Position numbers and translations under genes: made by a program | Shown: piece after piece, positions 8,477 through 27,547 of the stretch | How positions within the stretch are numbered: the first letter of the stretch is position 1 | Layout of the letters: each line of letters starts with the position of its first letter | Notes under the pieces: model-generated | The model's database searches: none | Seen by the model: only the letters and a program-made list of their open reading frames with translations | What the model was told of the DNA's origin: nothing | Assembly (NCBI GenBank): GCA_946415795.1 | Contig: CAMKTW010000002.1 | Location: 1 to 36,599 of the forward strand | Direction of reading: 5' to 3' | Length of the DNA stretch: 36,599 bases | Source: an uncultured Bacteroidales bacterium | Lineage (GTDB): Bacteria; Bacteroidota; Bacteroidia; Bacteroidales; UBA932

Positions 8477-8508
8477 ATTGCAATTACTAAAGTATTTATC
8501 TACATTTG
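8477..8508 (+). promoter_or_regulatory. Bacteroidota promoter for the FISUMP lipoprotein cluster
   Basis: ATTG at 8477-8480 (-33-like) and TACATTTG at 8501-8508 (-7, TAnnTTTG) are separated by 20 bases, within the spacing known for this phylum. Initiation would fall near 8515, giving a leader of about 60 bases before the ATG at 8575. Confidence 0.65.
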
Positions 8509-8574: not shown

Positions 8575-11500
8575 ATGAAAAGAAGCTTAACATTAGGCCT
8601 CCTGGCGGTGTTCGCCATCTTCGGTTGCCAGAAGGCTGAGCCGGAAATCCTCACACAGGCAGACAAACAGAAAGCCGCGGTCTTCAGCGCAACTATTGAA
8701 GTGATGGAAGACGGAAACCCCGTGGAGACGAAAACCTCTATGGATACCGATGGCAACGTGCTCTGGAAAAGCGGTGACCAGGTTAGCATCTTTGTCGGCA
8801 GCACCATCAACGAGCACTACCAGGTTACCGATGCGTCCGACGGCAAGACAGCGGCTGCACTGAACAGGGTTGAAAGCCCCGGATTCGTTGCCGGCGGGGA
8901 GATTGATAACAACGTTGCATTCTATCCGTATGCGGCTGCTGCAGAAATAGCAAAGGACGGGGCCTCATATATCATCAGCGGCATAGTTCTTCCTGCAACC
9001 CAATACTATGCAGAAGAAAGCTTTGGAAGCGGGGCGTTCCCCATGACGGCTGTTACAAGTTCGACGCGAGATTATAACCTCAAGTTCAAGAACGTTCTCG
9101 GCGGATTGAAGCTCCAGCTCAAGGGTACGGCCAAAATCACTTCAATAAACATTACCGGCAACAACGGAGAGGTCCTCTGCGGTGAGGCGGCAGTGACGGT
9201 TGCCAACGGAACCGCACCCGCTTTGAGCCTTCCCGACGATTGTACCGACGACAATGCAGATGCGTGTGCCATGACCGTTACCCTCGATTGCGGCACCGGA
9301 GTTCAGCTGAACCCGACGACGGCGACATCGTTTATTATTGCATTGCCTGCCATGACGATGCTCAGCGGCTTCACCGCAAAAGTGACCGATGCGGAAGGTG
9401 CCTCGATGGAGATAATGTCCTCTAAAATACAGACCATCACCCGCTCCAGCCTGCTCAAGATGCCGGCAGTGAATTATGTCGGGACCATACCGGAACCCGA
9501 ATTCGAGTATGTTGACCTGGGCCTGCCCTCGGGTGTGAAATGGGCCGCGTGCAATCTGGGCGCAGATTCACCGGAGGGATACGGAGATTATTATGCCTGG
9601 GGCGAAACGGAGCCTTATTACACTGAAGGCCACAGCCAGGACAATCCTTGCAGCAATTGGCGTACGGGCAGCAGTTCCGGCTATGTCTGGGCTTCTTATA
9701 AATGGTGCGGCGGCAGTGCAACCTCAATGACCCGGTATAACCACCTCAGTGCAAACGGTACGGTGGACAACAAGACTTCGTTAGGCGATTACGACTACAC
9801 GGACGATGCTGCCCGCCAGGCCCTCGGGGGCAGCTGGCGTATGCCCACAGCAGATGAATGGCAGGAGCTGATAGACAACTGCACCTGGACATGGACCACG
9901 CAAAACGGTGTGAACGGAAGGGTTGTCACCGGGCCCAACGGCAACAGCATTTTCCTCCCCGCCGCAGGGACAAGGACAGAAGGGAACCTCTCTGATGCAG
10001 GAGTCTGGGGCAACTATTGGACTTCTTCTCTCCACGCTGCAAACTCAAGCTACGCGGAGAAGGTCAATTTCAGGTCAAATGCTGCTCAGAGCACCAGCAG
10101 GGGTTCACGCTATTACGGCAGGTCAATCCGTCCCGTAACAGATGAAGACATCACTCCAGTGGGCAGCGTGGGCCTCAATAAAGCCAGCACCACAATGACT
10201 GTCGGTGATACCGAGACGCTGACGGCCACGGTCACTCCCTCCGGCGCCACAAACAAGGCGGTCGCATGGCGTTCCAGCGACACCGATGTCGTTACCGTGG
10301 ATGCCAACGGCATGGTGACGGCTCTTTCCACCGGCACGGCAACAGTTGTCGCTGCAGCAAAGAACGGCGGAAAGTCTGCCGTCTGCACGGTGACGGTGAA
10401 TCCTGCAAGTGGCGGCTCCAACGGCCACGATTATGTTGACCTGGGTCTCCCTTCAGGATTGAAGTGGGCTACCTGCAACGTTGGAGCAAGCAGCCCTGAG
10501 GAGTATGGCGATTACTTCGCCTGGGGAGAGACATCTACATATTACAGCAGCCTCGATCCGTTGACCTGGCAAAGCGGCAAGAGCTCCGGCTATAACTGGG
10601 CTTCGTACAAGTGGTGCAACGGCAGCGATACTTCACTGCTCAAGTATAACCACCTTAGTGCAAACGGTACTGTGGACAACAAGACGGAGCTGAGCTGTTT
10701 CAATTATGCCGACGATGCGGCAAGGCAGATTTATGGTGGCAAATGGCGTACACCGACCGACAAAGAGTGGCAGGAACTGATAGACAACTGCACCTGGACA
10801 TGGACAACGCAGAATGGCGTGAAAGGCAGAGTCGTCACCGGCACCAACGGAAAAAGCATCTTCCTCCCCGCCGCCGGGACAAGGACAGGCGTGAACATCG
10901 CCAACTTAGGGAGCTATGGCAATTATTGGTCGTCTTCCCTCCACATGGCAATCCCGAGCTACGCGGAGAAAGTCAGCTTCAGTTCAGGCGAAGCACAGGC
11001 TGTCAGCAGGGGCTGGCGCTATTATGGGCGGTCGATCCGTCCCGTGTGCGAAGAAGGCATCGTTGCCGTAAGCAGCTTGAGTCTCAATAAAGTAAGCATA
11101 ACGCTCGACATAGGCGATACCGAGACGCTCTCGGCTACTGTCAATCCCGCCGGCGCCACAAACAAGTCGGTCGCCTGGAGTTCAGGCAATACTGCCATCG
11201 CCACAGTCAATGCCGGCGGCACCGTGACGGCGCTCTCCGCCGGCACGGCGATAATTGTCGCAACTTCAAAGACCGGCGGTAAGACGGCAGTCTGCACTGT
11301 GACGGTGAATCCCTCCGGTGACGACGGCACGAACGGTCATGCCTATGTTGACCTTGGCCTCCCGTCCGGCGTGAAGTGGGCCACCTGCAATGTCGGCGCA
11401 AGTACTCCGGAAGGCTATGGCGATTATTTCGCCTGGGGCGAAACGGAGCCGTATTATACGAGCGGCCACTCGCAGGATTCCCCCTGCACCAACTGGCGTT

Positions 11501-11985
11501 CAGGCAAGACAGGCTACAATAATGATTCATACAAATGGGGCAGCGGAGGAGATGATGCGCTGGTCACACTTACCAGATATAACACTTGGAGTACAAAGGG
11601 TACTGTGGACAACAAAACCACATTCAGCGATTACGGCTACGTGGACGATGCTGCAAGACAGAATTTCGGAGGCAACTGGCGGACACCGACCTATGCAGAG
11701 TGGACAGAGCTCAGAACAAAATGCACATGGAAGTGGACTACCCGTAACGGAGTGTCCGGCACTCAATTCACCGGGCCCAACGGCAACACCATATTCCTGC
11801 CGGCCGCCGGAACCCGCAGTTATGTCAGTTACTACAACTGGGGGCAAGGCCAGTACTGGTCTGCCTCCCTCAATACGGGTTACCCTACCGCCGCATATAT
11901 GGTTACACTCAGCGATTCATCTATAAGCGAAGATGAGCACATGCCCCGCCAATACGGATACACAATCCGTCCCGTCATAGATTAA
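8575..11985 (+). CDS. Fimbrillin-like/FISUMP/Big_2 surface lipoprotein with three FISUMP modules
   Basis: The 1136-residue lipoprotein starts MKRSLTLGLLAVFAIFGC, with the lipobox cysteine at 18. An in-frame start at 8506 lies within the promoter and is rejected. Residues about 30-300 resemble the fimbrillin-like Mfa family (WKSGDQVSIFVGSTINEHYQV, then VAFYPYAA). Three FISUMP (Fibrobacter succinogenes major paralogous) modules follow at about 311-522, 619-828 and 922-1136, each starting YVDLGLPSG-K and ending in a GR/GYxIRPV motif. Two Big_2 Ig-like domains sit between them (about 528-611 and 833-913). This is an exported, probably surface-exposed protein; binding or adhesion is inferred and no enzymatic motif is seen. 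It is the first and longest of three paralogues, and the next gene begins 9 bases later. Confidence 0.92.
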   Translation: MKRSLTLGLLAVFAIFGCQKAEPEILTQADKQKAAVFSATIEVMEDGNPVETKTSMDTDGNVLWKSGDQVSIFVGSTINEHYQVTDASDGKTAAALNRVESPGFVAGGEIDNNVAFYPYAAAAEIAKDGASYIISGIVLPATQYYAEESFGSGAFPMTAVTSSTRDYNLKFKNVLGGLKLQLKGTAKITSINITGNNGEVLCGEAAVTVANGTAPALSLPDDCTDDNADACAMTVTLDCGTGVQLNPTTATSFIIALPAMTMLSGFTAKVTDAEGASMEIMSSKIQTITRSSLLKMPAVNYVGTIPEPEFEYVDLGLPSGVKWAACNLGADSPEGYGDYYAWGETEPYYTEGHSQDNPCSNWRTGSSSGYVWASYKWCGGSATSMTRYNHLSANGTVDNKTSLGDYDYTDDAARQALGGSWRMPTADEWQELIDNCTWTWTTQNGVNGRVVTGPNGNSIFLPAAGTRTEGNLSDAGVWGNYWTSSLHAANSSYAEKVNFRSNAAQSTSRGSRYYGRSIRPVTDEDITPVGSVGLNKASTTMTVGDTETLTATVTPSGATNKAVAWRSSDTDVVTVDANGMVTALSTGTATVVAAAKNGGKSAVCTVTVNPASGGSNGHDYVDLGLPSGLKWATCNVGASSPEEYGDYFAWGETSTYYSSLDPLTWQSGKSSGYNWASYKWCNGSDTSLLKYNHLSANGTVDNKTELSCFNYADDAARQIYGGKWRTPTDKEWQELIDNCTWTWTTQNGVKGRVVTGTNGKSIFLPAAGTRTGVNIANLGSYGNYWSSSLHMAIPSYAEKVSFSSGEAQAVSRGWRYYGRSIRPVCEEGIVAVSSLSLNKVSITLDIGDTETLSATVNPAGATNKSVAWSSGNTAIATVNAGGTVTALSAGTAIIVATSKTGGKTAVCTVTVNPSGDDGTNGHAYVDLGLPSGVKWATCNVGASTPEGYGDYFAWGETEPYYTSGHSQDSPCTNWRSGKTGYNNDSYKWGSGGDDALVTLTRYNTWSTKGTVDNKTTFSDYGYVDDAARQNFGGNWRTPTYAEWTELRTKCTWKWTTRNGVSGTQFTGPNGNTIFLPAAGTRSYVSYYNWGQGQYWSASLNTGYPTAAYMVTLSDSSISEDEHMPRQYGYTIRPVID

Positions 11986-11994
11986 CCGTGCATT

Positions 11995-14439
11995 ATGAAA
12001 AGATATTTATTAACGGTCATTATTGCCGCGTTGGCGATATGCAGTTGCCGGAAAGTGGAGCCGGAAGATGCCGTATCAGGAGGCGACCGGCAGGCTGCGG
12101 TTTTCAGCGCCACCATGGAAGCCATTGAGGACGCCGCCGTTGTCGAGACCAGGACATCTATGGACAAAGAAGGCAACGTGCGTTGGAAAGGCGGGGACCA
12201 GGTGAGTATCTTTGCGGGGAGCACCATCAACGAGCATTATCAGGTGACCGATGCCTCCGACGGCAAGACATCGGCATCGCTGAACATGGTAGAAAGTCCC
12301 GGTTTCGTCGCCGGCGGAGAAATACCGGTCAACGTCGCTTTTTATCCCTATGCGGCGACCGCAGAAATAGCCAGGCGAGGGGACGTGTACGCCATCAGCG
12401 ACATAGCGATGCCTGCTACCCAGACATACGCGGATGGAAGCTTCGCTAACGGGGCGTTCCCTATGGCGGCTGCTACAAGTTCAACGAACGATTACAATCT
12501 CAAGTTCAAGAACGTGCTCGGAGGAGTGAAGCTCCAGCTCAAAGGTACGGCCACGATTTCTTCGATATCTATATCCGGGAACAACAATGAGATACTTTGC
12601 GGCGCAGCGGTCGTGTCGGTCTCAGCTGCCACCACTCCTGCCGTCAGCCTGACCGATGCATCAGCCACAACCGTAACCTTGAATTGCGGCTCGGGCGTAC
12701 AACTTAACACGACAACGGAGACTTCCTTTATCATTGCCCTTCCGCCGATGACAATGACCGGCGGATTCACGGCAACGGTGACCGATTCCGATGGCGCGTC
12801 TATGGAGATAAAGACCACAAAGTCGCAGACCATAACCCGCTCCAACCTGCTCAAGATGCCGGCTGTGAATTATGTCGGAACGCTGCCTGAGCCCGAACCT
12901 GAACCCACCAGCGACTACGTTGACCTGGGACTCCCTTCCGGTCTGAAATGGGCGACCCGCAACCTGGGTAAAGACGGCTTTGTAAGTTCACCCGAGGATT
13001 ACGGAGATTATTACGCGTGGGCAGACCTGGAGCCTTATTACATCAGCCTCGATCCGTTGACCTGGAAGGACGGCAAGACCGGATACAACTGGGCGTCATA
13101 CACCTGGTGCCAGGGCAGCAACACTACATTGACCAGGTACAACAACAAGAGTGCAAATGGCGATGTGGATAACAAAACGGCATTCAGCGGCTACAATTAC
13201 GCAGACGATGCGGCACAGAAACTTGATGGAGGCAAATGGCGTACGCCGACAGATGCCGAGTGGGCAGAGCTGATAACCAACTGCACTTGGACCTGGACCA
13301 CCCAGAACGGGGTGAACGGATGCCTGGTCAGCGGTTCTAATGGTAAAAGCATATTCCTTCCCGCCGCCGGATGCTGGGTAAGCAACAATACAACAAGTAC
13401 CGATACCGGCGACTGGGGCAACTACTGGGCCGCATCTCTCCATACAGACGACCCGAGATATTCGATGCGCGTGAGCTTCAGCTCGAGTTCAGCCAGCAGC
13501 GTCAGCAGGGGCTGGCGCTACTATGGGCGGTCTATCCGCCCCGTTTACGACGAGGCCATCATTCCCGTCGTCAGTATGAGACTCAACAAGACCAGCCTGA
13601 CCATCGAGGCCGGCAATACAGAAACTCTCACAGTCATAACTTCTCCCGCCAACCCCACAAACAAGGCCGCTGTATGGACCTCAAGCAACACCGGCATCGC
13701 TACCGTCGATAACAACGGTACAGTAAGGGGTATGGCTACCGGCACGGCTACGATTACCGCAACTACCGTGAATGGCGGCAAGACTGCTGTCTGCACAGTG
13801 ACGGTAAATCCCTCAACCCACGCCTATGTCGATTTGGGACTCCCGTCCGGCGTCAAGTGGGCAACCTGCAACCTCGGCGCAAGCTCTCCCGAGGGGTATG
13901 GCGATTATTACGCCTGGGGTGAAACGGCCACCTATTACAGCAGCCTGAACCCGTTGACCTGGAAAAGCGGCAAAACCAGCGGATACACCGGGACCTCATA
14001 CAGATGGTGCGAAGCAATTAACGCGTATGACTATAATATGACCAAGTACAACCCGACCGACCATAAAACAGTTCTGGATCTGGCTGACGATGCTGCCCGC
14101 GCAGAATGGGGCGGTAGCTGGCGCACACCTACCGAAGCGGAGTGGAAGGAACTGCTGAGTAATTGTACCTGGACCAGAACCACTCAGAACGGAGTAAGCG
14201 GGCGCCTTGTCAAAAGCAAGATCAACAACAACAGCATTTTCCTCCCTGCTGCCGGAACCATTCACGACAAAACTCTCGCCGCTACCGGTACCGGAGGCTA
14301 CTATATGTCATCTTCCTTCAATACAAGTCAGCCTATCTATTCGAATTATATGTATTTCGATTATATCTCCCAGCAGGAATTCCTGTATTTCTACCAGGGG
14401 GTTCGCTTCAACGGCCGTTCTGTCCGTCCTGTTATGTAA
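11995..14439 (+). CDS. Fimbrillin-like/FISUMP/Big_2 surface lipoprotein with two FISUMP modules
   Basis: The 814-residue paralogue of the preceding gene has a signal MKRYLLTVIIAALAICSC with the lipid-accepting Cys at 18. The fimbrillin-like domain covers about 30-295 and again has GDQVSIFAGSTINEHYQV and VAFYPYAA. FISUMP modules lie at about 306-516 and 609-814, with one Big_2 domain between (about 520-602: MRLNKTSLTIEAGNTETLTV). The spacer before the first FISUMP module is Pro/Glu-rich (EPEPEPTS). The second FISUMP module is the most divergent, ending GRSVRPVM. A 20-base block (13046-13065) is identical to 10550-10569 in the first paralogue, so recombination or recent duplication of modules is likely. 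It is cotranscribed with its upstream neighbour (9-base gap). Confidence 0.92.
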   Translation: MKRYLLTVIIAALAICSCRKVEPEDAVSGGDRQAAVFSATMEAIEDAAVVETRTSMDKEGNVRWKGGDQVSIFAGSTINEHYQVTDASDGKTSASLNMVESPGFVAGGEIPVNVAFYPYAATAEIARRGDVYAISDIAMPATQTYADGSFANGAFPMAAATSSTNDYNLKFKNVLGGVKLQLKGTATISSISISGNNNEILCGAAVVSVSAATTPAVSLTDASATTVTLNCGSGVQLNTTTETSFIIALPPMTMTGGFTATVTDSDGASMEIKTTKSQTITRSNLLKMPAVNYVGTLPEPEPEPTSDYVDLGLPSGLKWATRNLGKDGFVSSPEDYGDYYAWADLEPYYISLDPLTWKDGKTGYNWASYTWCQGSNTTLTRYNNKSANGDVDNKTAFSGYNYADDAAQKLDGGKWRTPTDAEWAELITNCTWTWTTQNGVNGCLVSGSNGKSIFLPAAGCWVSNNTTSTDTGDWGNYWAASLHTDDPRYSMRVSFSSSSASSVSRGWRYYGRSIRPVYDEAIIPVVSMRLNKTSLTIEAGNTETLTVITSPANPTNKAAVWTSSNTGIATVDNNGTVRGMATGTATITATTVNGGKTAVCTVTVNPSTHAYVDLGLPSGVKWATCNLGASSPEGYGDYYAWGETATYYSSLNPLTWKSGKTSGYTGTSYRWCEAINAYDYNMTKYNPTDHKTVLDLADDAARAEWGGSWRTPTEAEWKELLSNCTWTRTTQNGVSGRLVKSKINNNSIFLPAAGTIHDKTLAATGTGGYYMSSSFNTSQPIYSNYMYFDYISQQEFLYFYQGVRFNGRSVRPVM

Positions 14440-14464
14440 AAACCATTATTTAATACTTTAAAAT

Positions 14465-14590
14465 ATGAAAAAGACAATGAAAACCAGTGTTTACAACGCT
14501 CCTGTATGCGTAGTTCTTTCTGTGGGCGCTCAGGGCGTAATCTGCGGCAGCGAAACTGAAAAGGTGACCGAGACCCAGGGCGAATGGTAG
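14465..14590 (+). CDS. Small 41-residue peptide of unknown function
   Basis: An ATG at 14465 opens a 41-codon frame ending TAG at 14590. The peptide begins MKKTMKTSVYNAPVC and continues with a hydrophobic VVLSVGAQGVICGS block and an acidic, Thr/Glu-rich tail ending TQGEW. It lies 25 bases after the stop of the two-module FISUMP lipoprotein and 24 bases before the start of the one-module paralogue, so it is very likely in the same transcript. Composition (basic start, hydrophobic core with two cysteines, acidic end) is that of a real coding segment. Short peptides with a similar basic-Pro-hydrophobic-acidic plan are familiar beside Bacteroidales surface lipoproteins, but I know of no assigned function. 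Confidence 0.6.
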   Translation: MKKTMKTSVYNAPVCVVLSVGAQGVICGSETEKVTETQGEW

Positions 14591-14614
14591 AACAGGGTAA
14601 ATAGCAGTTTTACC

Positions 14615-16132
14615 ATGAAAAGAATCATATTATCAGCCCTTCTGGTTCCGCTCTTGATAAGCAGCTGCCACAAGGTTGATGCAGACAGTGCTGCCTCCGC
14701 CGACAACCGACAGGCAGTTGTCTTTACCGCCACTATGGAGGCTATAGCTGACGATGCAGCTGCCGTTGACACCAAGACATCCATGGGCAATGGGGGCAGA
14801 GTCCTCTGGAAACAGGGCGACCAGGTGAGTATGTTCTCAGGCAGCACCATCAATGAACGCTACCAGGTCTCCGATGATTCAGATGGCAAAACATCTGCAA
14901 CATTGTACCGGGTTACAAGTCCCGGCTTCGTCGCCGGAGGGGAGTTGCCTGTCAACGTTGCATTTTATCCTTACGCAGCCAGTGCGGGAATCGCCAGAAA
15001 GGGCCAAGGGGCGTATGTCATCAGCGACTTATCGCTTCCCGCAACCCAGAACTGTGCCTTGGAGAGCTTTGGTAACGGAGCCTTCCCGATGGTAGCAGTC
15101 ACAAGTTCGGCTCTTGACAATGAGCTCTTGTTCAAGAACGTTATCGGCGGTCTCAAACTCCTTTTAAAAGGCAATGCCGCCATAACCTCGATCAGCGTAA
15201 CCGGCAATAACAACGAGAAACTCTGCGGCGCAGCGGAGATTACCGTTTCTAACACCGACCTGCCCTCCATCAAACTGACAGATGCTGCAGCCAGTACCGT
15301 GACTCTGGATTGCGGCGACGGTGTCCAGCTTGAAGAGGAAACCGCAACTGCTTTCATCATCGCCCTTCCGCCTGTGACAATGACCAAGGGCTTCACCGTA
15401 ACCGTTACCGACAGCCAGGACAACCAGACGGAGATTAAAACCAATAAAGCTCAGACCATCACCCGCTCCAACCTCCTCAGGATGCCAGCGGTGACAATCG
15501 AGGGCGCTGCGGCCGACGAGCATCAGTATGTTGATCTCGGCCTGACCTCCGGCCTGAAGTGGGCAACCTGTAACATCGGTGCGGACGCTCCTGAAGAATA
15601 CGGCGATTATTTCGCCTGGGCTGAGACAGAACCGTATTACAGCAGCCTGGCACCTCTCGCTTGGAAAGACGGCAAAACCGGATATAGCTGGGGGACATAC
15701 ACCTGGTGCGAAGGCTCTTACAATACCCAGACCAAGTATTGCGTAAGCAATTCTTTCGGCATCGTGGACAACAAGACTGTCCTTGAAGCGGAGGATGATG
15801 CCGCTTATGCCAATTGGGGGAGTAGCTGGCGTATGCCTACCGACGATGAATGGACAGAGCTGATGACTGAATGCGACTGGACCTGGACCACCCTGAACGG
15901 AGTCAACGGCAGGCTTGTCACCGGTCCTAACCACAACAGCATATTTCTGCCTGCTGCCGGCAGTTGGTTTGAAACCGACCTCGAGGATACCGGCGCTGTC
16001 GGCCTCTACTGGTCTTCTTCGCTCGGTACAACTTCTGACTACGGATGGTGTACATCCTTAGACTCGTACAGTCTATTCCACACAAGCTACTGCAGATTCT
16101 TCGGTCAGTCTATACGTCCTGTTAAAGATTAA
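14615..16132 (+). CDS. Fimbrillin-like/FISUMP surface lipoprotein with one FISUMP module
   Basis: The 505-residue third paralogue has signal MKRIILSALLVPLLISSC with lipobox Cys at 18. The fimbrillin-like domain covers about 28-295 (WKQGDQVSMFSGSTINERYQV, VAFYPYAA). A single FISUMP module at about 303-505 starts YVDLGLTSGLKWATC and ends GQSIRPV. It has no Big_2 domain. It closes the series of proteins with 3, 2 and 1 FISUMP modules. The hallmark WTWTTLNGVNGRLVTG and SIFLPAAG blocks are conserved, while the stretch before the terminal IRPV differs strongly from the other modules. A strong hairpin terminator lies downstream at 16161-16193. Confidence 0.92.
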   Translation: MKRIILSALLVPLLISSCHKVDADSAASADNRQAVVFTATMEAIADDAAAVDTKTSMGNGGRVLWKQGDQVSMFSGSTINERYQVSDDSDGKTSATLYRVTSPGFVAGGELPVNVAFYPYAASAGIARKGQGAYVISDLSLPATQNCALESFGNGAFPMVAVTSSALDNELLFKNVIGGLKLLLKGNAAITSISVTGNNNEKLCGAAEITVSNTDLPSIKLTDAAASTVTLDCGDGVQLEEETATAFIIALPPVTMTKGFTVTVTDSQDNQTEIKTNKAQTITRSNLLRMPAVTIEGAAADEHQYVDLGLTSGLKWATCNIGADAPEEYGDYFAWAETEPYYSSLAPLAWKDGKTGYSWGTYTWCEGSYNTQTKYCVSNSFGIVDNKTVLEAEDDAAYANWGSSWRMPTDDEWTELMTECDWTWTTLNGVNGRLVTGPNHNSIFLPAAGSWFETDLEDTGAVGLYWSSSLGTTSDYGWCTSLDSYSLFHTSYCRFFGQSIRPVKD

Positions 16133-19177: not shown

Positions 19178-20815
19178 CTAGTGGCTGAAGCCGAGCCTTT
19201 CGAGGCCGCGGCGGATGTCGGCATCGCGCATGAAGGTGTTCCAGAGCAGGCCGGTGCGCCAGTTCTCTATCATACAGACAATCGGGCCCTGGTCAATGGC
19301 GATGTAACTCTTGGCGAACCACTGATGTTCCAGTGAGAAGGCGTCGTAGAAACCGTAGTCGCCCCAAATCCTGTTGCCAAGTTTGTAATATAAGTATTCC
19401 ATCGCCGCCAAGGATTCGTCTGGAGTGTACGGCATACTGGAAATTGCCGCGGTGGGGGCTATCGTGCCGGTGTCGTTGGTGGGTGAGGATGCGGTATATC
19501 CGTTCCAATAGTCGCTGGCGGTGAGGCCCCAGCAGACGTCGCTGTAACCATAATATCCTTTGGGGTTGGCAGCGCAGTAGGCGTGGTTTATCCTGGAGTG
19601 GGCGACGTTCTGTTCCCAATAGTCGGCGTAAGCATCGCTAAGGTTGCGGGGGTCGAGGCCCAGGAAAGAGTAGTGGGCAAAGAACATCGGGCCGCCGTAG
19701 TCGGGACCCAGCGGCAGGGTGATGTCATAGAACTGCCTGTGGTTTCTGGTACCGGAAGCCCAGCCCTTGTCATAAACCTCTTTCGAAATGGGGTGGGTGG
19801 GAGACGAAGCTGCCAGCACATAAACTATCAGCGCCTCGTTCCAGCCGCGCACCTGCATATTCATCTTCCAGTCGTAGTCGGGCGACCAGTGCCAGTAGAG
19901 CACATCCTGCCCGCTGCGGGTGAAATGGTCCCATTCCACCGCCTCCCAAAGGGAGGTTATGCCGCTGCGGATGGAGGCCTCTGTGTCGTCGCTGCCGTCA
20001 AAGAAGGCGCGCAAGGTGAGCAGCCCCTCCATTAGGAAGGCGGTCTCCACCAGGTCGGCGCCATTGTCGTATGTGCTGAAAGCGATGGTCTTGCCGGTTG
20101 TGCCGTTAAGCCAGTGGGGGAATGCGCCGTGATATCTCACCGCCTTGTTCTGAAGGAACCCGACCACCTTGAGGGCGCGTGCCGCACCCTCTTCGCGGGT
20201 GATGAACCCCCGCCTGATGCCCACAGGGATGGCCATCAGGCCGAAGCCGCTGCCGCCAATGGTGACTGTCTCATCGCTGCCGAGCCTTTCGCGGGCGAGT
20301 CCGCTGGCGGGATGCGCATAGTCCCAGAAATATGCGAAAGTGCGCTCCTGCACCTTGGTGAGCAGTTCGTCGGTGGAGATTCTGGAAAAGACATCCCTGC
20401 TGTCGTCCAGCGCGGTTATGAACGAGAAGGTGAAACCTTCTACCAAATTTACGCCGAAGCCTTCGCCAGCGGCAATACCTATTCTGTATGGGGAGAACTC
20501 GCCCAGGGGATTCCTGGGGGTAAGAACCATTACAGACGGGTCATCGGCATCCAGATGTACTTCAAGTTCGCCTCCGGAGAAGGAGAGACAGGCTGCGACA
20601 GACACTTTGTCTAACTGTATTTCGCGTGAGAAGCTGAGTAAGATTTGCGGCTGCAGCGAGACGCCGTTCACCGTGCCTGACTCGAGAACAGCCTTACCAT
20701 CTATAGTGGCGGATACGACAATGGCTTTGGGAAGTGATTCGGGGCCAACATGCTGGCCGCATGAGGTCACTGCCATAACTATGGTGGCAGCAGCGATATA
20801 ACAAAGTCGGTTCAT
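19178..20815 (-). CDS. GH144-like (glucoamylase-fold, PF10091-type) beta-1,2-glucanase lipoprotein
   Basis: The 545-residue lipoprotein has a lipobox VTSC (Cys19). Residues about 28-135 form an Ig-like (Big_5-type) domain ending FTFSFITALDD. The remaining ~400 residues match the glycoamylase fold of family GH144: YFWDYAHPASGLARERLGS, GGSGFGLMAIPVG, TYDNGADLVETAFL, VLYWHWSPDYDWKMN, and the C-terminal YIAIDQGPIVCMIENWRTG. GH144 enzymes cleave beta-1,2-glucan, either endo or releasing sophorose. As an Ig-bearing lipoprotein placed after susC/susD and a LamG lipoprotein, it is the likely surface-exposed glucanase of the locus. It is the last gene of the PUL. A paralogue without the Ig domain lies at 26261-27544. 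Confidence 0.88.
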   Translation of the reverse strand: MNRLCYIAAATIVMAVTSCGQHVGPESLPKAIVVSATIDGKAVLESGTVNGVSLQPQILLSFSREIQLDKVSVAACLSFSGGELEVHLDADDPSVMVLTPRNPLGEFSPYRIGIAAGEGFGVNLVEGFTFSFITALDDSRDVFSRISTDELLTKVQERTFAYFWDYAHPASGLARERLGSDETVTIGGSGFGLMAIPVGIRRGFITREEGAARALKVVGFLQNKAVRYHGAFPHWLNGTTGKTIAFSTYDNGADLVETAFLMEGLLTLRAFFDGSDDTEASIRSGITSLWEAVEWDHFTRSGQDVLYWHWSPDYDWKMNMQVRGWNEALIVYVLAASSPTHPISKEVYDKGWASGTRNHRQFYDITLPLGPDYGGPMFFAHYSFLGLDPRNLSDAYADYWEQNVAHSRINHAYCAANPKGYYGYSDVCWGLTASDYWNGYTASSPTNDTGTIAPTAAISSMPYTPDESLAAMEYLYYKLGNRIWGDYGFYDAFSLEHQWFAKSYIAIDQGPIVCMIENWRTGLLWNTFMRDADIRRGLERLGFSH

Positions 20816-20820
20816 AGTGA

Positions 20821-20846
20821 CGGCAGGGAGATCCCTCCCCCTGCCG
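20821..20846 (-). promoter_or_regulatory. Hairpin just upstream of the distal GH144-like gene
   Basis: CGGCAGGG (20821-20828) pairs with CCCTGCCG (20839-20846) around a 10-base loop, ending 5 bases before the ATG at 20815. It has no T tract, so it is more likely an mRNA stability or translation-modulating structure than a terminator. Confidence 0.5.
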
Positions 20847-20857
20847 CCTGAAAAACA

Positions 20858-21730
20858 TTACATAAGAGCGATTGCAACCTCTTCTTTGCGGAGAGCCTGA
20901 ATCTCGGCCTCGGTGAGAGCCTTGTTGTAGATACGGAGCTCGTCGATGCTGCCGGAGAAGAAGCTCATCCAGTCTGCTGCACCTGCGTAGGTCTCGATCC
21001 AGGATGCCCAACCACCTACATAGAAAGCATTTGCATCAGAAGGAACGCATTTGCCCCAAGGCATCATGTCGCCGAATTCAGCATCCTTAACCTTGACGCC
21101 GTCCACATAGAGTGCCCATGCACCGGTAGATGCAGTGTAGGTATAGGCGAACTGGAACCAGGAGTTGTATTTAGCGAAAGCTGCATCCCATGTGTCGAGC
21201 CACATATTGGTTTCGCTGTCGTCGGCCTTCTTGAACATTATGCGGCCGTTGACCTGCTGCCTCTCGACGCCAGTCTCTTCGTCAACACCCTTGTTGTCGA
21301 ACATAACAACCAGAGAAGGCCAGTCCTGAGTGGGGAAGAGCTTGCCGTTAACGGAGAAGAGGCCACCCTTCTGGAAATCTTTGATATTCTTGACCCAGAC
21401 GGTGAAAGTTACATCTTCAAGCTTGCTTAGGGCGTTGTCGGCAGCGAGTTTGAACTTCATGTAAGCTTCATTGTTGTTGCCAGCGGTGTTTACATAACCC
21501 TTGCCGATATAGCCTTCGCCAAAGTCAGCGGCCCCGGCCTTTTTCTCAAAGGTGAAACCCTGGCCAACCTTTACAGCGTTGTCGGCTGCCTCGAAAGGCA
21601 TGTGGAGAACCAGGTTCTCTGCGCAGGTCTTTACCTCGGGAGTAGTGTCTTTAGGGTCATCTTTAGGGGTCTTTTCGCAAGCTGCGAATGCGAACATTGC
21701 AGCGAGTGCAAGTACAAATACTTTTTTCAT
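20858..21730 (-). CDS. LamG/concanavalin-fold surface lipoprotein of the PUL
   Basis: The 290-residue lipoprotein has signal MKKVFVLALAAMFAFAAC (Cys18) and a short acidic linker rich in Asp/Pro/Lys. Residues about 40-275 look like a Laminin_G_3/concanavalin-like domain: LVLHMPFEAADN at the start, FTVWVKNI, WFQFAYTYTASTGAWALYVDGVKV, and a final SGSIDELRIYNKALTEAEI. It lies 35 bases downstream of susD and 42 bases upstream of the Ig-GH144 gene. By position it is a candidate surface glycan-binding protein (SusE/F analogue) of the locus. Catalysis is not excluded, because concanavalin folds also occur in glycosidases, but I see no catalytic pair. Confidence 0.83.
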   Translation of the reverse strand: MKKVFVLALAAMFAFAACEKTPKDDPKDTTPEVKTCAENLVLHMPFEAADNAVKVGQGFTFEKKAGAADFGEGYIGKGYVNTAGNNNEAYMKFKLAADNALSKLEDVTFTVWVKNIKDFQKGGLFSVNGKLFPTQDWPSLVVMFDNKGVDEETGVERQQVNGRIMFKKADDSETNMWLDTWDAAFAKYNSWFQFAYTYTASTGAWALYVDGVKVKDAEFGDMMPWGKCVPSDANAFYVGGWASWIETYAGAADWMSFFSGSIDELRIYNKALTEAEIQALRKEEVAIALM

Positions 21731-21765
21731 TGTGTTGTTGATTTGTTAGTTGGTTGATATTAAGT

Positions 21766-23241
21766 TTAGTAGGTATATCCGGGCGTTGCGGGGAGGAAGG
21801 GATTCAGCTGCCGCTGGGCGGAAGGAATCGGGAACACCTCGTTCTTGCCTGCGGTGAAGCCGAGCGGGCCGAGCACCTTGGCGGCTTTGCCCCAGCGCAC
21901 CAGGTCAAAGAAGCGGTTCTCTTCGAGCGCCAGCTCTGCGCGACGTTCATCGTAGATATTCTCCAGGGAGGCGCTTGTGGCGGCAAGACCGGCACGTGTG
22001 CGCACCTCGTTGAGTGCCATATCGGCAGTGTAGCCGGATGTGGGAGCGATTGCGGCTCCATTGGCCATGGCTTCTGCAAACATCAGAAGCACATCGGCAT
22101 ATCGTATAATCCTCATATTGTGGTCCAGGCCGTAAGCATTGTACGAACGGTTGTTGGTGCGGGTAGGTACATAAACCTTGCCGTTGTAGTAAGGGTTGGT
22201 GCAGGATTCTATCACCACGTCCCCTTCAGCGGTGGTTTCGCCGCGCACAAGCAGGGTCACTTTTTTGCGGATATTGTCGCCACGGGAGTCCAAGAAGTCG
22301 ATAAGATTCTGGCTGGGAACCTTGTACCCCCAACCCTGGAACGGCTCTTTGTTGCCACGGGGTCCCTGGATGAAAGCGTAATAGCAGAGGGGCATGCCGC
22401 CGGTGCTCTGGCCCATGTCGGAGCTCTCTATCTCCATCAGCGACTCTGCGCCGCCTTCGTTCTCTACATTGAAAGCATCTTTGAAACGGCTCATCAGAGA
22501 ATAACGGCCGCTGGCGATAATGAGGTCAGTCAGTCTGGCGGCCTCGTTCCAATCTTCGCGGTACAGCGCAACCTTTGCCTTGAGCGCCATGGCCGTATAC
22601 TTGTTATACCGGCCCTTGTAATCTGTGTGGGAGTCGGGGACCACGGCTATGGCATCGTCCAGATCTTTATAGATAAAGGCATAGACCTCTTCTGGTTTCT
22701 TTGCGTTGGCCGTTGCGAGCTCGTCTGCAGTCATGGTGCGGTCAATGATGGGGACGGTGCCGAACAGGCGCACCAGGTTGAAATATGCGTAGGCACGGAT
22801 TATCTTGGCCTCGCCCCGGCACTCCACCACAGTCTGCCGGCCCGCCTCCGAGGTGATGGCCTCGGCAAACTTGTCCATGGATTCTATTGCATAGTTTGCG
22901 GCAGAAGAGATGTTGTAGAAATAGTTCCACATTGCCTCAACATTGTTGTTGTCGGGGCCGTAGGTGAACTTGTCCAGCTGAGCTACGGTAGGGCCGTCGG
23001 CTTCTGTGGAGCCTTTGTCGGCATCGTCGGAAACAATCTCCATCACGCCGACATAGTTCTGTGCCCATCCTTCACTGAGGCGCATGCTTGCGTAGGCGGC
23101 GCTCACGGGAAGGAACACGTTCTCCGGCTTGGAATAGTCCAGTCCTGCCGAGGGCATGGAGGCCTCGGTGCGGATATCGAGCAAATCGGAGCAGGATATG
23201 GCTGCAAAAGCAGCGAGTATTATGATGATACTTTTTTTCAT
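21766..23241 (-). CDS. SusD/RagB-family outer-membrane lipoprotein
   Basis: The 491-residue lipoprotein starts MKKSIIIILAAFAAISC (Cys17). N-terminal and C-terminal SusD signatures are visible: SCSDLLDIRTEA, ECRGEAKIIRAYAYFNLVRLFG for the TPR-like part, and AELALEENRFFDLVRWGKA with FPIPSAQRQLNP near the end. SusD-like proteins form the lid of the SusC barrel and bind the oligosaccharide at the cell surface. The gene starts 4 bases after the susC stop, the standard tight coupling. Substrate specificity is inferred from the neighbouring GH144/GH3 genes. Confidence 0.97.
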   Translation of the reverse strand: MKKSIIIILAAFAAISCSDLLDIRTEASMPSAGLDYSKPENVFLPVSAAYASMRLSEGWAQNYVGVMEIVSDDADKGSTEADGPTVAQLDKFTYGPDNNNVEAMWNYFYNISSAANYAIESMDKFAEAITSEAGRQTVVECRGEAKIIRAYAYFNLVRLFGTVPIIDRTMTADELATANAKKPEEVYAFIYKDLDDAIAVVPDSHTDYKGRYNKYTAMALKAKVALYREDWNEAARLTDLIIASGRYSLMSRFKDAFNVENEGGAESLMEIESSDMGQSTGGMPLCYYAFIQGPRGNKEPFQGWGYKVPSQNLIDFLDSRGDNIRKKVTLLVRGETTAEGDVVIESCTNPYYNGKVYVPTRTNNRSYNAYGLDHNMRIIRYADVLLMFAEAMANGAAIAPTSGYTADMALNEVRTRAGLAATSASLENIYDERRAELALEENRFFDLVRWGKAAKVLGPLGFTAGKNEVFPIPSAQRQLNPFLPATPGYTY

Positions 23242-23245
23242 GGCC

Positions 23246-26245
23246 CTAGAAATTCATGTTTATACCGAAGGAATAGATGGACTGCATGGGATATACCGAC
23301 GAAGAGTCGATGCCGTTCGCGGTGGGAGAACCGCCGATCTCGGTGGTGAAGCCGTTATAGCCAAACAGGGTCAGGGGGCGCTGTGCAGAGAGATATGCAC
23401 GGATGGTGCCGCTGCCGAATACCTTGTGGAAGGTGTATCCCACCTGGACGTTCTGGATGCGGAACATAGAGCCGTCTTCAACAAAGAAACTGTTGCTCTG
23501 GGCCATCAGCTGCTCTGTGAGCACGCGCGGGGTGGGATATGTGTCGGAGGGTGCGTCCTTGCGCCAAGCGTTCTTATAGAAGTCATAGTCGTAGTTGCCC
23601 TCGGCAAACACCTGTTTGTTGAGACGCTTGCTGTTGAATATCTTGTTGCCGATATTGGAGTTGCAAACCACAGAGAAGTCCCAGTTCTTATAATTGAATC
23701 CAAAGTCAAAACCGAGCATCAGCCAAGGCAGGGGAGAGCCGAGATATGTGCGGTCGGCCTCCGTAATCTTGCCGTCGGGGGTGCCGTCTTCGTTACCGGC
23801 AAAGTCGTGATACTGGAAGAATCCTGCGCCGGTGGTCAGTTGTGTAACGTCGGCCATCTGGGCGTCATATTCGTTCTTGAAAATGCCGTCTACCTGATAG
23901 CCCCAGAAGGCTCCGATGGGGTAGCCCACCTGGGTCATGGTTGCGTAAGCACCGTTGGTGAGGGCTCCGGGGATATTGTCACGTCCTTCAAGTGCGAGCA
24001 CGCGGTTGTGGTTGAAGGTGGCGTTCAAGCCCAGGTTGTAGCCAAAGTCGTCGCCGATATTGTCGGCCCACTTGAGGGCCATCTCCACGCCGGCATTGAG
24101 CACTTTGCCGTTATTTGCGAGCAGGGTTGCCACACCGCCGCCGGTGGCCACGGGTGCATGGAACACAACGCGGTCGGTAACGCGGTAGTAGAGGTCGATG
24201 TCGCCGGAGAGACGGTTCCTTAGGAATGCGAAGTCGGCACCGACGTTGGCCTCGGTCACGACCTCCCACTTGAGATAATTCTGGTAAACCGTCTGAGCTC
24301 CGATACCGTCCACGAGGGTGTCACCAAACACGGCAGAGGAATCCACTCCGGAGTTGCCGGCAATATTGATGTCATTGGCAGGGACATTATCGTTACCGAG
24401 CATACCCCAGCTGGCGCGCAGTTTGAGGAAATCAAAGGTCTTGTTACCCTGCATGAAAGGCTCGTCGGTAACCACCCAGCCCAGACCGATTGAGGGGAAG
24501 AAACCCCATTTCTCCTGGTACTTTGAGCTGCCGTCGGCACGGAATGTCAGTGTTGCCAGATAGCGTCCCTTATAGCTGTAGGTGCCGCGGGTGAAAAATG
24601 ACAGGCCGTTGTAGCGTGAAGCACCGTCGGTCGCATTCTGGTTTTTATAAGAACCGTTCACCAGATAGCGGGCCTGGTCGTCGTAGTCTGGCACGTTGCT
24701 CACCACGCCGCGCAGCCAGCCGTTGTACTGCATACGCAGCGACTGCCCGGCCATAACAGAGAAGTTGTGGTCTCCTATCTGGTCGGCGAAAGTCAGGGTG
24801 TTGTCAAAAATCTGATAAGTGCCGTATGCGTAGGTCTTGTTGAGCGATGATACTGAAGTGCCCTGGGAGCCGCCCACGAAGTGTTCAGGAGTATAACTCT
24901 GCTGGTCGGCAAAGCTGAAGTCAAGGTTGTAGGAAGTTTTGAACTTCAGTTTTTCTGTGATGGTAGCCTCCGCATATATGTTGAACACACTCTTCAGACC
25001 TTTTTCGCGGCTGTTGGTGTAATATGCAGAAGCGGCCGGGTTACCGTATGAGTTGGGGTAACCGTAACGCTGGGGAGAATCAAAAGCGACAGGATACGCA
25101 TCGGTGTTGGCGTCGTTGTAAACGCCGTAAACCGGAGGGTTCACAAAAGCCTGGTAATAAACCCCGGAGTTGGGGTTATGCTGGTTGTGACGGGAAACCA
25201 CGGTGTTGATACCCATCTTTAGCCAGTCAGTCATAGTCTGGTCCAGACGTGCACGCAGGTTAAAACGGTTGTAATTGTTGGTGCAGTAGTTCATGATACC
25301 GTCCTGGTAAAAATAGCTCAGGCCCACCGAGTAGTTGGTCTTTTCAGTGCCGCCCGACAGATCGAGTGAATGGCTGTGGGTGAGAGCGTTATGTACCAGC
25401 TCTTTATACCAGTCTGTGCTGACGCCGTTATAGTCGGCTGCATTCTTTGCAGAGTCGGGATATACCAGGTTGTACATCTCTACATACTGCTCTGTATTGG
25501 CAAGCTTCATAATGTTGGTAGGCACCTGCAAGCCGGCATAGCCCTCGTAGCTTACGCGCACCTTACCCAGGTCGCCCTTGCGGGTGGTGACAATTATGAC
25601 GCCGTTTGCGGCCCGCACACCATAAATGGCAGCTGCCGATGCATCCTTGAGCACGGTAAGAGACTCGATGTCATTGCTGGAGAGAAAGTTAATGTTGTCC
25701 ATAAAAGCGCCGTCAACTACATATAGCGGGTTGGCATAGTCGCCGATGGAGCCCACGCCACGGATCTTTACGGACGGTCCGGCACCAGGGGCGCCGCTCT
25801 GGGTAATCTGTACGCCGCTGACCTTGCCCTGGAGAGCGCTCATCGGGTTGGCGGCCGTCTGGCGGGAGAGTTCTTCACCCTTGACGTTAACGATAGGTGC
25901 GGTGAGGTCCTTGGACTTCTGGGTGCCGTAACCCACGACAACCACCTCGTCCAGGAAGTTGACATCCTCTTTGAGAAGGATGCTTGAAGGGACACTGTTG
26001 GCCGGGAAGGTCTGGGTGGCATAGCCTATGCAGCTCACCTCAACCATTGATTCCGGCCCCGAGACTTTCAGGGAAAAGTTGCCGTCAAAGTCGGTCGAGG
26101 TACCGTTCTGCGTACCCACCTCCATTACGGTGGCGCCTACAACCGGTCCCAGATCGTCCGAGATGACGCCCTTCACCTGATATTGTGCCTGCGCACCCAG
26201 CGCAAACGACAACAGGATCAGTGTTGTGAGGATAAATTTTTTCAT
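23246..26245 (-). CDS. SusC/RagA-family TonB-dependent transporter
   Basis: The 999-residue outer-membrane transporter has signal MKKFILTTLILLSFALGAQA. A carboxypeptidase-regulatory-like domain (YQVKGVISDDLGPVVGATV) comes first, then the TonB-box region VVVVGYGTQKSKDLTAPI, a plug domain (PLYVVDGAFMDNINFLSSNDIESLTVLKDASAAA) and a long beta-barrel to the C-terminal aromatic residue (INMNF). The N-terminal STN domain that links to anti-sigma factors is absent, so regulation through an ECF sigma pair is not expected. It follows the GH144 gene by 15 bases and precedes susD by 4. It should import the oligosaccharide made by the GH144-like enzymes. Confidence 0.97.
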   Translation of the reverse strand: MKKFILTTLILLSFALGAQAQYQVKGVISDDLGPVVGATVMEVGTQNGTSTDFDGNFSLKVSGPESMVEVSCIGYATQTFPANSVPSSILLKEDVNFLDEVVVVGYGTQKSKDLTAPIVNVKGEELSRQTAANPMSALQGKVSGVQITQSGAPGAGPSVKIRGVGSIGDYANPLYVVDGAFMDNINFLSSNDIESLTVLKDASAAAIYGVRAANGVIIVTTRKGDLGKVRVSYEGYAGLQVPTNIMKLANTEQYVEMYNLVYPDSAKNAADYNGVSTDWYKELVHNALTHSHSLDLSGGTEKTNYSVGLSYFYQDGIMNYCTNNYNRFNLRARLDQTMTDWLKMGINTVVSRHNQHNPNSGVYYQAFVNPPVYGVYNDANTDAYPVAFDSPQRYGYPNSYGNPAASAYYTNSREKGLKSVFNIYAEATITEKLKFKTSYNLDFSFADQQSYTPEHFVGGSQGTSVSSLNKTYAYGTYQIFDNTLTFADQIGDHNFSVMAGQSLRMQYNGWLRGVVSNVPDYDDQARYLVNGSYKNQNATDGASRYNGLSFFTRGTYSYKGRYLATLTFRADGSSKYQEKWGFFPSIGLGWVVTDEPFMQGNKTFDFLKLRASWGMLGNDNVPANDINIAGNSGVDSSAVFGDTLVDGIGAQTVYQNYLKWEVVTEANVGADFAFLRNRLSGDIDLYYRVTDRVVFHAPVATGGGVATLLANNGKVLNAGVEMALKWADNIGDDFGYNLGLNATFNHNRVLALEGRDNIPGALTNGAYATMTQVGYPIGAFWGYQVDGIFKNEYDAQMADVTQLTTGAGFFQYHDFAGNEDGTPDGKITEADRTYLGSPLPWLMLGFDFGFNYKNWDFSVVCNSNIGNKIFNSKRLNKQVFAEGNYDYDFYKNAWRKDAPSDTYPTPRVLTEQLMAQSNSFFVEDGSMFRIQNVQVGYTFHKVFGSGTIRAYLSAQRPLTLFGYNGFTTEIGGSPTANGIDSSSVYPMQSIYSFGINMNF

Positions 26246-26260
26246 CAGGTTGAACAGGTA

Positions 26261-27544
26261 TTAATTGTTATAGTAAAATCCGAGTTTTTCAAGGCCTGCG
26301 GCAATTTCAGGGCAGCTGCCGAAAAGGTTCCAGAGCAGACCGCTACGGTAGTTTTCTATCATTACCGCTTCAGGCCCCTGGTCAATAGCCAGATAGTGTT
26401 CAAGCACCTGCCTGTCTTCCGGCAGGGTATAATTGATTGCGTCATAGAAGCCGTAGGGGCCGAAGGTGCGTTTGTCGCCGAGCAGGCGGCGGATGACGGC
26501 CATACTCTCTTCAGGAGTATAGACTATTGAAGACACCGCTGCGGTGGGGCTCACCGTGCCGTTCTCCTCAGGCGTGCCGGGATAGTGGCCGGCATAGCCC
26601 AGCAGGACGTCGTCGCTGCTGGTGAATCCCCAGAAATCCTCTCCCAGCTGCTTTTCCGGGTGGTCCATAGCATAAGCGCGGTGAATCAGGCACTGGTTGC
26701 GGTTGCGCTCAAAGTAGTCGGTATGGCCGTCGCTGAGGCCGCGAGGGTCAAGGCCGAGGAAGGAGTAGTGGGTAAAGAACAGCGGCCCGCCGTAGGGCAT
26801 CCCGATGGTGAGCGGGATGCCGTAGTACTCGTTGCCGTTGTAGTAGTAGGGGCTGGTCTTGTACGACGCCTCGTAGCACTCTCTGGTGATGGGAAAAGTG
26901 GGCGATGATGCCGCCAGAATGTAGGTAATCAGCGTTTCGTCAAAGCCGCGTATGCGGTGGTTCATCTTGAAGCCGTAGTTCTTGGACCAGTGCCAGTAGA
27001 GGCTGTCGGTGGCCTGTGTGTACCAGTTCCACTCTATGCCCCGCCAGAGGCTGTCGCAGCGGGCCTTGATGCCTTCGTCCCCGGTCCACTGACGGGTTGT
27101 GAGGATGCCTGCGGTAAGGAAGGCCGTCTCCACCAGGTCACCTCCGTCGTCGTATTTGCTGAACGGATAAGCCTCGCCGCTGTCGCCGTCGTACCAGTGG
27201 GCCCAGGCGCCGTGGAATCGCTCTATGCGCTCCAGGGAAGAGATGATTTTCTCCAGGCGCCGCTCCCCCTCTTCGCGAGGGTAATAACCCCGCTCGGCGC
27301 CGGCGATTATCGCCATCATACCAAATCCGGTGCCGCCGGTGGTTACTATATTGCCGTGGACGTCATCGTTGCGCTCGCGGGCCATTCCGGTATTGGGCTC
27401 GGCGAATTCTGTAAAATACTTGATGGTGGCCTGCTCGATGCGGTCCAGGATGGCTTCGTCGCTCTCCTGCTTAGGGGTGCAGGCCGGTGTCAAAGTGGCT
27501 ATGGCGATAAGCACTATGGCAAACGCCGTCAATGGACGCTTCAT
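26261..27544 (-). CDS. GH144-like (glucoamylase-fold) lipoprotein, single-domain
   Basis: The 427-residue lipoprotein has lipobox LTPAC (Cys22) and then a GH144-type catalytic domain throughout. Conserved blocks are TGMARERNDD, GGTGFGMMAIIAG, FHGAWAHWYDG, KYDDGGDLVETAFL, SLYWHWSKNYGFKMN, MPYGGPLFFTHYSFLGLDP and YLAIDQGPEAVMIENYRSG. Unlike the paralogue at 19178-20815 it has no Ig domain. It follows the GH3 gene by 3 bases and precedes susC by 15. The two GH144-like enzymes are likely to divide labour, for instance one endo-acting at the surface and one releasing sophorose from chain ends; which does what cannot be read from the sequence. Confidence 0.88.
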   Translation of the reverse strand: MKRPLTAFAIVLIAIATLTPACTPKQESDEAILDRIEQATIKYFTEFAEPNTGMARERNDDVHGNIVTTGGTGFGMMAIIAGAERGYYPREEGERRLEKIISSLERIERFHGAWAHWYDGDSGEAYPFSKYDDGGDLVETAFLTAGILTTRQWTGDEGIKARCDSLWRGIEWNWYTQATDSLYWHWSKNYGFKMNHRIRGFDETLITYILAASSPTFPITRECYEASYKTSPYYYNGNEYYGIPLTIGMPYGGPLFFTHYSFLGLDPRGLSDGHTDYFERNRNQCLIHRAYAMDHPEKQLGEDFWGFTSSDDVLLGYAGHYPGTPEENGTVSPTAAVSSIVYTPEESMAVIRRLLGDKRTFGPYGFYDAINYTLPEDRQVLEHYLAIDQGPEAVMIENYRSGLLWNLFGSCPEIAAGLEKLGFYYNN

Positions 27545-27547
27545 AAG

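Follow-up and report, generated by a model that had tools for sequence, protein, structure and literature searches.

A conserved family of short acidic YxxP peptides encoded ahead of surface-lipoprotein genes in Bacteroidales as candidate precursors for RRE-guided maturation

Results

A 41-residue peptide gene lies between FISUMP-domain lipoprotein genes

The window, which is the whole 36,599-nucleotide stretch of DNA analyzed here from an uncultured Bacteroidales bacterium, carries a run of four genes in which a short peptide gene is third, behind a single TAnnTTTG box (Table 1). TAnnTTTG is the Bacteroidota promoter consensus for the -7 box. The peptide, MKKTMKTSVYNAPVCVVLSVGAQGVICGSETEKVTETQGEW, is 41 residues long and is read from an ATG at 14465 to a TAG ending at 14590, with 25 nt between it and the stop codon of the preceding lipoprotein gene and 24 nt before the next one, exactly as the initial annotation had placed it. 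The other three genes encode tandem lipoproteins (8575-16132) whose FISUMP domains are joined by Big_2 domains, an arrangement suggesting growth by module duplication, and the first of them has no peptide gene in front. The product of the gene downstream of the peptide has the lipobox LLISSC, an N-terminus with FTATMEA..TKTS and the FISUMP-type motif VDLGLTSGLKW, and scores below Pfam and NCBIfam thresholds. Elsewhere in the window, the minus strand at 19178-29791 holds a polysaccharide locus of the SusC/SusD type, in which two Glycoamylase-family proteins and a GH3 enzyme are encoded.

Table 1. Features of the four-gene run, in positions of the window.
Feature	Position	Strand	Basis or remark
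Putative TAnnTTTG -7-like box (TACATTTG), ahead of all four genes	8501..8508	+	Sequence reading against the general consensus
Lipoprotein that opens the run, with FISUMP domains plus two Big_2 domains	8575..11985	+	Domain searches
Upstream lipoprotein, FISUMP domains and one Big_2 domain	11995..14439	+	Domain searches
41-residue precursor-like peptide gene, YxxP family	14465..14590	+	Translation; paralogues and homologues; pN/pS 0.29
Leader-like block Y10-S29 (YNAPVCVVLSVGAQGVICGS), 20 residues, candidate RRE-binding leader	14492..14551	+	Gap-free in 79 members
S29 codon, candidate phosphoacceptor	14549-14551	+	74 of 79 members have Ser at block position 20
Acidic tail ETEKVTETQGEW, candidate mature product	14552..14587	+	pN/pS 0.14 vs 0.42 in the block; acidic tails
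Candidate partner lipoprotein, fimbrillin-like N-terminus and FISUMP-type C-terminal domain	14615..16132	+	24 nt downstream of the peptide gene

Since the window holds 345 open reading frames (ORFs) of at least 30 residues, the length of the peptide frame alone is little evidence that it is a gene. We found three paralogues in its own genome, a 1.6-Mb assembly that is 73% complete (E values of 9e-18, 2.6e-14 and 8.9e-6), while a search of 100 related genomes returned 18 places in 8 genomes including its own, that is, in 7 of the 99 others. Homologues were also present in further genomes of the same genus and family. Across a 32-codon core in 12 sequences, pN/pS was 0.29, with many synonymous changes all along the core. 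Given these paralogues, the homologues and the pN/pS value, we therefore regard the frame as a genuine gene that is selected on its amino acids, which is well supported at the level of sequence; the same conservation and pN/pS rule out a chance ORF. The initial annotation had read the frame as an unannotated peptide gene and suggested a dN/dS test, and this reading is borne out by the conservation, by the constraint on the protein and by the lack of any matching model in Pfam, NCBIfam or PHROG. Phage origin was also ruled out, as there was no PHROG match and viral contigs encode no relative. Neither is the peptide itself a lipoprotein or a signal peptide: it has no proper hydrophobic signal region, and the residue at -1 of the candidate Cys27 is Ile, as it is in most members of the family, instead of the G, A or S that precedes Cys at the end of a lipobox.

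The family combines a fixed leader-like block with a variable acidic tail

A profile of close members (A1) matched in 101 of 300 genomes of the window's family, and a broader profile (A3) extended the reach to other Bacteroidales families. When named genomes were searched with a profile from a narrower alignment, only assemblies called 'Bacteroidales bacterium' were returned, from goat rumen and sheep reticulum. We compared 79 distinct members, which were picked by Y/F/W-x-x-P and all have Y, so that the Y and P columns are partly built in while the other columns are not. Common to all is a gap-free N-terminal block of 20 residues, Y-x-x-P ... V-I-[C/A]-x-S, with Y1, P4, hydrophobic residues at 8, 9 and 11, and then V16, I17, C or A18 and S20. 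Ser occupies block position 20 in 74 members and position 20 or 21 in all 79, while 19 have Ala or Leu in place of the Cys. The initial annotation had described a hydrophobic core in the peptide; the hydrophobic residues are there, alternating in a strand-like block, but they form neither a signal nor a transmembrane segment.

The tails that follow the block are 11-37 residues long in all but two of the 79 members, differ between subfamilies and are net acidic in every member tested. Within the window's subfamily, constraint on the tail exceeds that on the block (pN/pS of 0.14 versus 0.42), and this points to the tail as the part of the peptide that does the work. On the alignment, a block of fixed length followed by a variable acidic tail is the leader/core layout of RiPP precursors. 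These comparisons give good support to the view that gut Bacteroidales have a large family of short acidic peptides, so far unannotated, that are encoded ahead of surface-lipoprotein genes.

Two further groups of loci differ in their tails. In another Bacteroidales family (loci L084-L100 in genomes G409 and G589), G409 has eleven block matches that mostly lack a lipoprotein partner, and tails such as YRNSLWGDDE and SDWSDFE recur; by appearance, the family has a second branch here, made up of orphans. In a paralogue (L001, G000:C1:18799-18909 with the ORF around it) and also in L012, the tail continues in frame (TETQGEW-KELMTKCTW) into a FISUMP domain, of which only the C-terminal half is present, as though the GEW of the peptide had been joined to the EWKEL of the domain by a deletion via short homology.

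Most relatives in the window's family directly precede a lipoprotein gene

The initial annotation had suggested a search for conserved short frames beside FISUMP or fimbrillin genes in other genomes, and such frames were found. Among members of the window's family with enough sequence, 47 of 54 lie directly upstream of a lipoprotein start, mostly at a spacing of 12-25 nt, while 16 of 23 order-level loci, from other Bacteroidales families, carry the block without a downstream lipoprotein; both counts include lipoproteins with Cys-Gly-Cys lipobox types. This strong tie to lipoprotein genes fits the earlier suggestion that the peptide is a partner of the surface lipoproteins, and FISUMP or fimbrillin-like lipoproteins are its direct neighbors and likely partners. 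The peptide has no domain in common with them, and it lacks both a signal peptide and a usable lipobox. A specific link to FISUMP was ruled out as a general rule, since most relatives precede fimbrillin-like lipoproteins that are not of the FISUMP type. Only members ending in GxW stand ahead of FISUMP genes (13/21 versus 0/58 of the others, p 8e-10), and shared descent of the pair suffices to explain this association.

Many loci have a TAnnTTTG box some 60-95 nt ahead of the Tyr codon, and the transcript there therefore probably begins with the peptide gene, as read from sequence. At three loci (L013, L014 and L016), the spacer between peptide and lipoprotein is longer, at 95-100 nt, and that of L014 contains an inverted repeat, CACCACCG...CGGTGGTG, which could form a hairpin in the transcript. 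The peptide gene persists at L008, where the downstream lipoprotein is a frameshifted remnant, and at L020, where it is absent.

A PqqD-centered cassette recurs in the genus and is encoded in the window's own genome

YxxP is the leader motif that is bound by discrete PqqD-type RREs, i.e., RiPP recognition elements (PMC13381572). Around the PqqD genes of the genus, we found a recurrent cassette of a putative HprK-like kinase, a signal-peptidase-like protease, PqqD, a nucleotidyltransferase (PF14907, NTP_transf_5) and an MsbA-like ABC exporter. The kinase-like protein has about 290 residues and a P-loop with an invariant Walker A motif, and its profile matches to PEPCK/HprK are weak (E 4e-4 to 2e-3). 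The protease, of about 150 residues and of the LexA/signal-peptidase type, matches profiles of signal peptidase I and LexA, has invariant S33, H71 and D86, and adjoins the RRE; the last two components have profile matches at 2.5e-31 for NTP_transf_5 and 4e-62 for the MsbA-like ABC protein. Aligned to PDB 9x8z, the cassette and genus PqqD proteins keep the Asn (15/16) and the Asp (16/16) equivalent to N33 and D70 of LppB. All five genes are present in the genome of the window, on two contigs, with the break at a point where the genes are adjacent in related genomes: C138 carries the protease, kinase and NTP_transf_5 genes, and C21 carries PqqD and, by homology, NTP_transf_5 and ABC genes.

The window peptide's own locus lies outside the cassette, while some relatives (L140 and L148) do have the precursor inside the cluster. 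In G019 (C17), two peptide-lipoprotein pairs lead directly into genes for the kinase, protease, PqqD and ABC exporter, and in G002 (C218), a YxxP precursor lies between a radical SAM gene and PqqD-protease-kinase. On contig C119 of the window's own genome, a paralogue, a radical SAM/SPASM maturase and PqqD stand in a row, which is a RiPP-cluster layout. At this locus (L003, G000:C119, 223-1369), the maturase is compact, at 248 aa, and because the peptide frame overlaps its start, the two genes may have suffered damage or have come together recently. Of the peptide matches listed, the 0.21 Mb of sequence retrieved around PqqD genes contains 4, versus 0.2 expected from density (Poisson 7e-5).

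Across the 300 genomes of the window's family, PqqD was found in 95 of 101 peptide-positive versus 82 of 199 peptide-negative genomes (Fisher 4e-21, with kinship ignored), and among high-quality genomes in 57/60 versus 45/85. Tallied by genus, the figures were 8/9 with the peptide versus 8/17 without (p 0.09), and within the window's genus they were 13/15 versus 5/11 (p 0.04). Outside the family, the association was not discriminated (7/8 versus 23/39, p 0.23), and this order-level test is uninformative because PqqD is common there. The protease was present in 5 of 6 order-level peptide-positive genomes tested and in 0 of 14 controls without peptide or PqqD, with a partial match in a fifteenth (G011). 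In two high-quality, nearly complete peptide-positive genomes (G017 and G021), neither PqqD nor the protease was detected. These two genomes are the main evidence against strict dependence on the cassette and call for caution.

Discussion

The closest known parallel is provided by the linear polyphosphorylated peptides (LPP) of the Paenibacillus alginolyticus lpp cluster (PMC13381572). Their core set consists of an SPase-I-like protease, an RRE, an HprK-like kinase, an NTP transferase, an MsbA-like exporter and precursors of 35-200 aa with a variable C-terminus and a conserved N-terminus bearing YxxPxVLxHQxIxFETxxS (PMC13381572). In maturation, the RRE presents the leader to the protease, with Asn and Asp of LppB (N33 and D70) binding the Pro kink and the Tyr of the leader, the precursor is cut after T-1, and polyphosphorylation falls on the Ser at position 3 of the core (Ser3); the type is stated to be restricted to Bacillota, and its biological role is left open (PMC13381572). 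The Bacteroidales peptides likewise have YxxP in a conserved N-terminal leader (Y10xxP13 in the window), a Ser at the end of the motif and a variable C-terminus, and their cassette comprises the same five kinds of gene, among them a putative HprK-like kinase and a discrete PqqD-type RRE with the Asn and Asp. On the other hand, they match the full motif only in part, without HQ and FET, their block has 20 residues versus 19 in LPP, and their host is Bacteroidota and not Bacillota. Whereas LPP precursors lie inside the cluster, the Bacteroidales ones are mostly dispersed through the genome, and in the window's family each is paired with a surface-lipoprotein gene. The window peptide would work like an LPP precursor, but we do not class it as LPP because it lacks the full motif and the in-cluster placement. 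The system would best be described as RRE-guided peptide maturation in a new form, from Bacteroidota, whose precursors are dispersed and linked to lipoproteins.

Two other systems are similar in part. Lasso peptide clusters, including the phosphorylated paeninodin type, also have a [Y/W]xxP leader read by a discrete PqqD (B1) protein, and the best PDB matches of the cassette PqqD are the lasso B1 proteins TfuB1 (6jx3) and TbiB1 (5v1u); in contrast, the cassette proteins that we examined included neither a macrolactam synthetase nor a B2-type protease, and no ring-forming pattern is conserved in the peptide tails. The HPr-rel-A and SynChlorMet cassettes (NCBIfam TIGR04352/TIGR04353, ScmC/ScmD) combine an HprK-like kinase with a PqqD-type chaperone and give weak profile matches, but all of these are far below curated cut-offs and the gene sets differ. 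In the literature searched, which was mostly without subscription journals, we found no published description of this Bacteroidales peptide system.

We propose that the peptide is an LPP-like precursor that is matured in trans, and we give this reading a probability of about 0.6. A PqqD-type RRE encoded elsewhere in the genome would capture Y10-x-x-P13 and the strand that follows, and one cassette (HprK-like kinase, signal-peptidase-like serine protease, PqqD, NTP_transf_5 and MsbA-like ABC exporter) would act on several dispersed precursors. Cleavage of the peptide would fall toward the end of the block, in the region of V25-S29, either about three residues before the Ser, as is LPP practice, or after the Ser by a signal-peptidase cut, which the small residues C/A18 and S20 would suit. 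The near-invariant Ser (S29) may be phosphorylated, and the acidic tail ETEKVTETQGEW would be exported. The peptide would be made from the same transcript as the surface lipoprotein, and the tail is most likely deployed with this lipoprotein. RRE binding, cleavage, phosphorylation, export and lipoprotein contact are all steps that we infer. The idea of a processed peptide, one of the options raised by the initial annotation, fits the RRE-type YxxP leader and the processing machinery encoded in the genome; for a small regulator, another of its options, we found no support of any kind.

Part of the evidence could be accommodated by a small intracellular protein that is never processed and that assists in folding, delivering or regulating the adjacent lipoprotein, its YxxP being convergent. 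The very tight pairing with lipoprotein genes in the window's family (47/54, mostly at 12-25 nt), the way in which tail type tracks FISUMP-type partners (13/21 versus 0/58) and the two peptide-positive genomes without a detected cassette would all suit such a protein. We nevertheless consider it rather unlikely, as the block is fixed in length in a RiPP-leader layout, occurs without a downstream lipoprotein at 16 of the 23 order-level loci and is found in members within radical-SAM/PqqD and protease/PqqD loci. The members that lack a downstream partner, a good number in all, also count against a translated leader ORF that would control lipoprotein expression by translational coupling or attenuation while the peptide itself has no job. 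Such an ORF would explain the short, constant spacing to the next start codon and the position of the peptide as first ORF after a TAnnTTTG box in many loci, where the box stands about 60-95 nt before the Tyr codon, but selection acts on the amino acids, synonymous change is free, constraint is strongest in the tail and no excess RNA-level constraint was seen, which makes this explanation improbable.

A different RRE enzyme could also use the peptide as its substrate, for example, a radical SAM/SPASM maturase such as that beside the C119 paralogue, in which case the product would be cross-linked and not phosphorylated. Both C119 and C218 of G002, where a YxxP peptide gene neighbors a radical SAM gene and PqqD, speak for this, and the conserved Cys of IC-x-S could serve as the cross-link site. 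Yet this Cys is replaced in the 19 members noted above, and radical SAM genes occur at only two of the loci examined, whereas the protease/kinase/ABC cassette is the common type, so that we regard a cross-linked product as highly improbable.

If maturation in trans by the cassette is correct, the Bacteroidota would have a counterpart of LPP. The range of this RiPP type would take in dominant bacteria of the gut and rumen, the widespread and unexplained PqqD/protease/NTP_transf_5/ABC cassette would have a purpose, and a large class of unannotated ORFs of 35-60 residues would be accounted for. Each precursor would also offer a functional handle by pointing to a candidate partner on the cell surface. 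More tentatively, and with odds that we put somewhat below even, a central RRE/protease/kinase/exporter cassette in many Bacteroidales may mature dispersed precursors, with up to 17 matching genes in a single genome and a separate fimbrillin-like or FISUMP lipoprotein linked to every precursor, as a modular system of peptide-plus-adhesin display or signaling in the gut and rumen.
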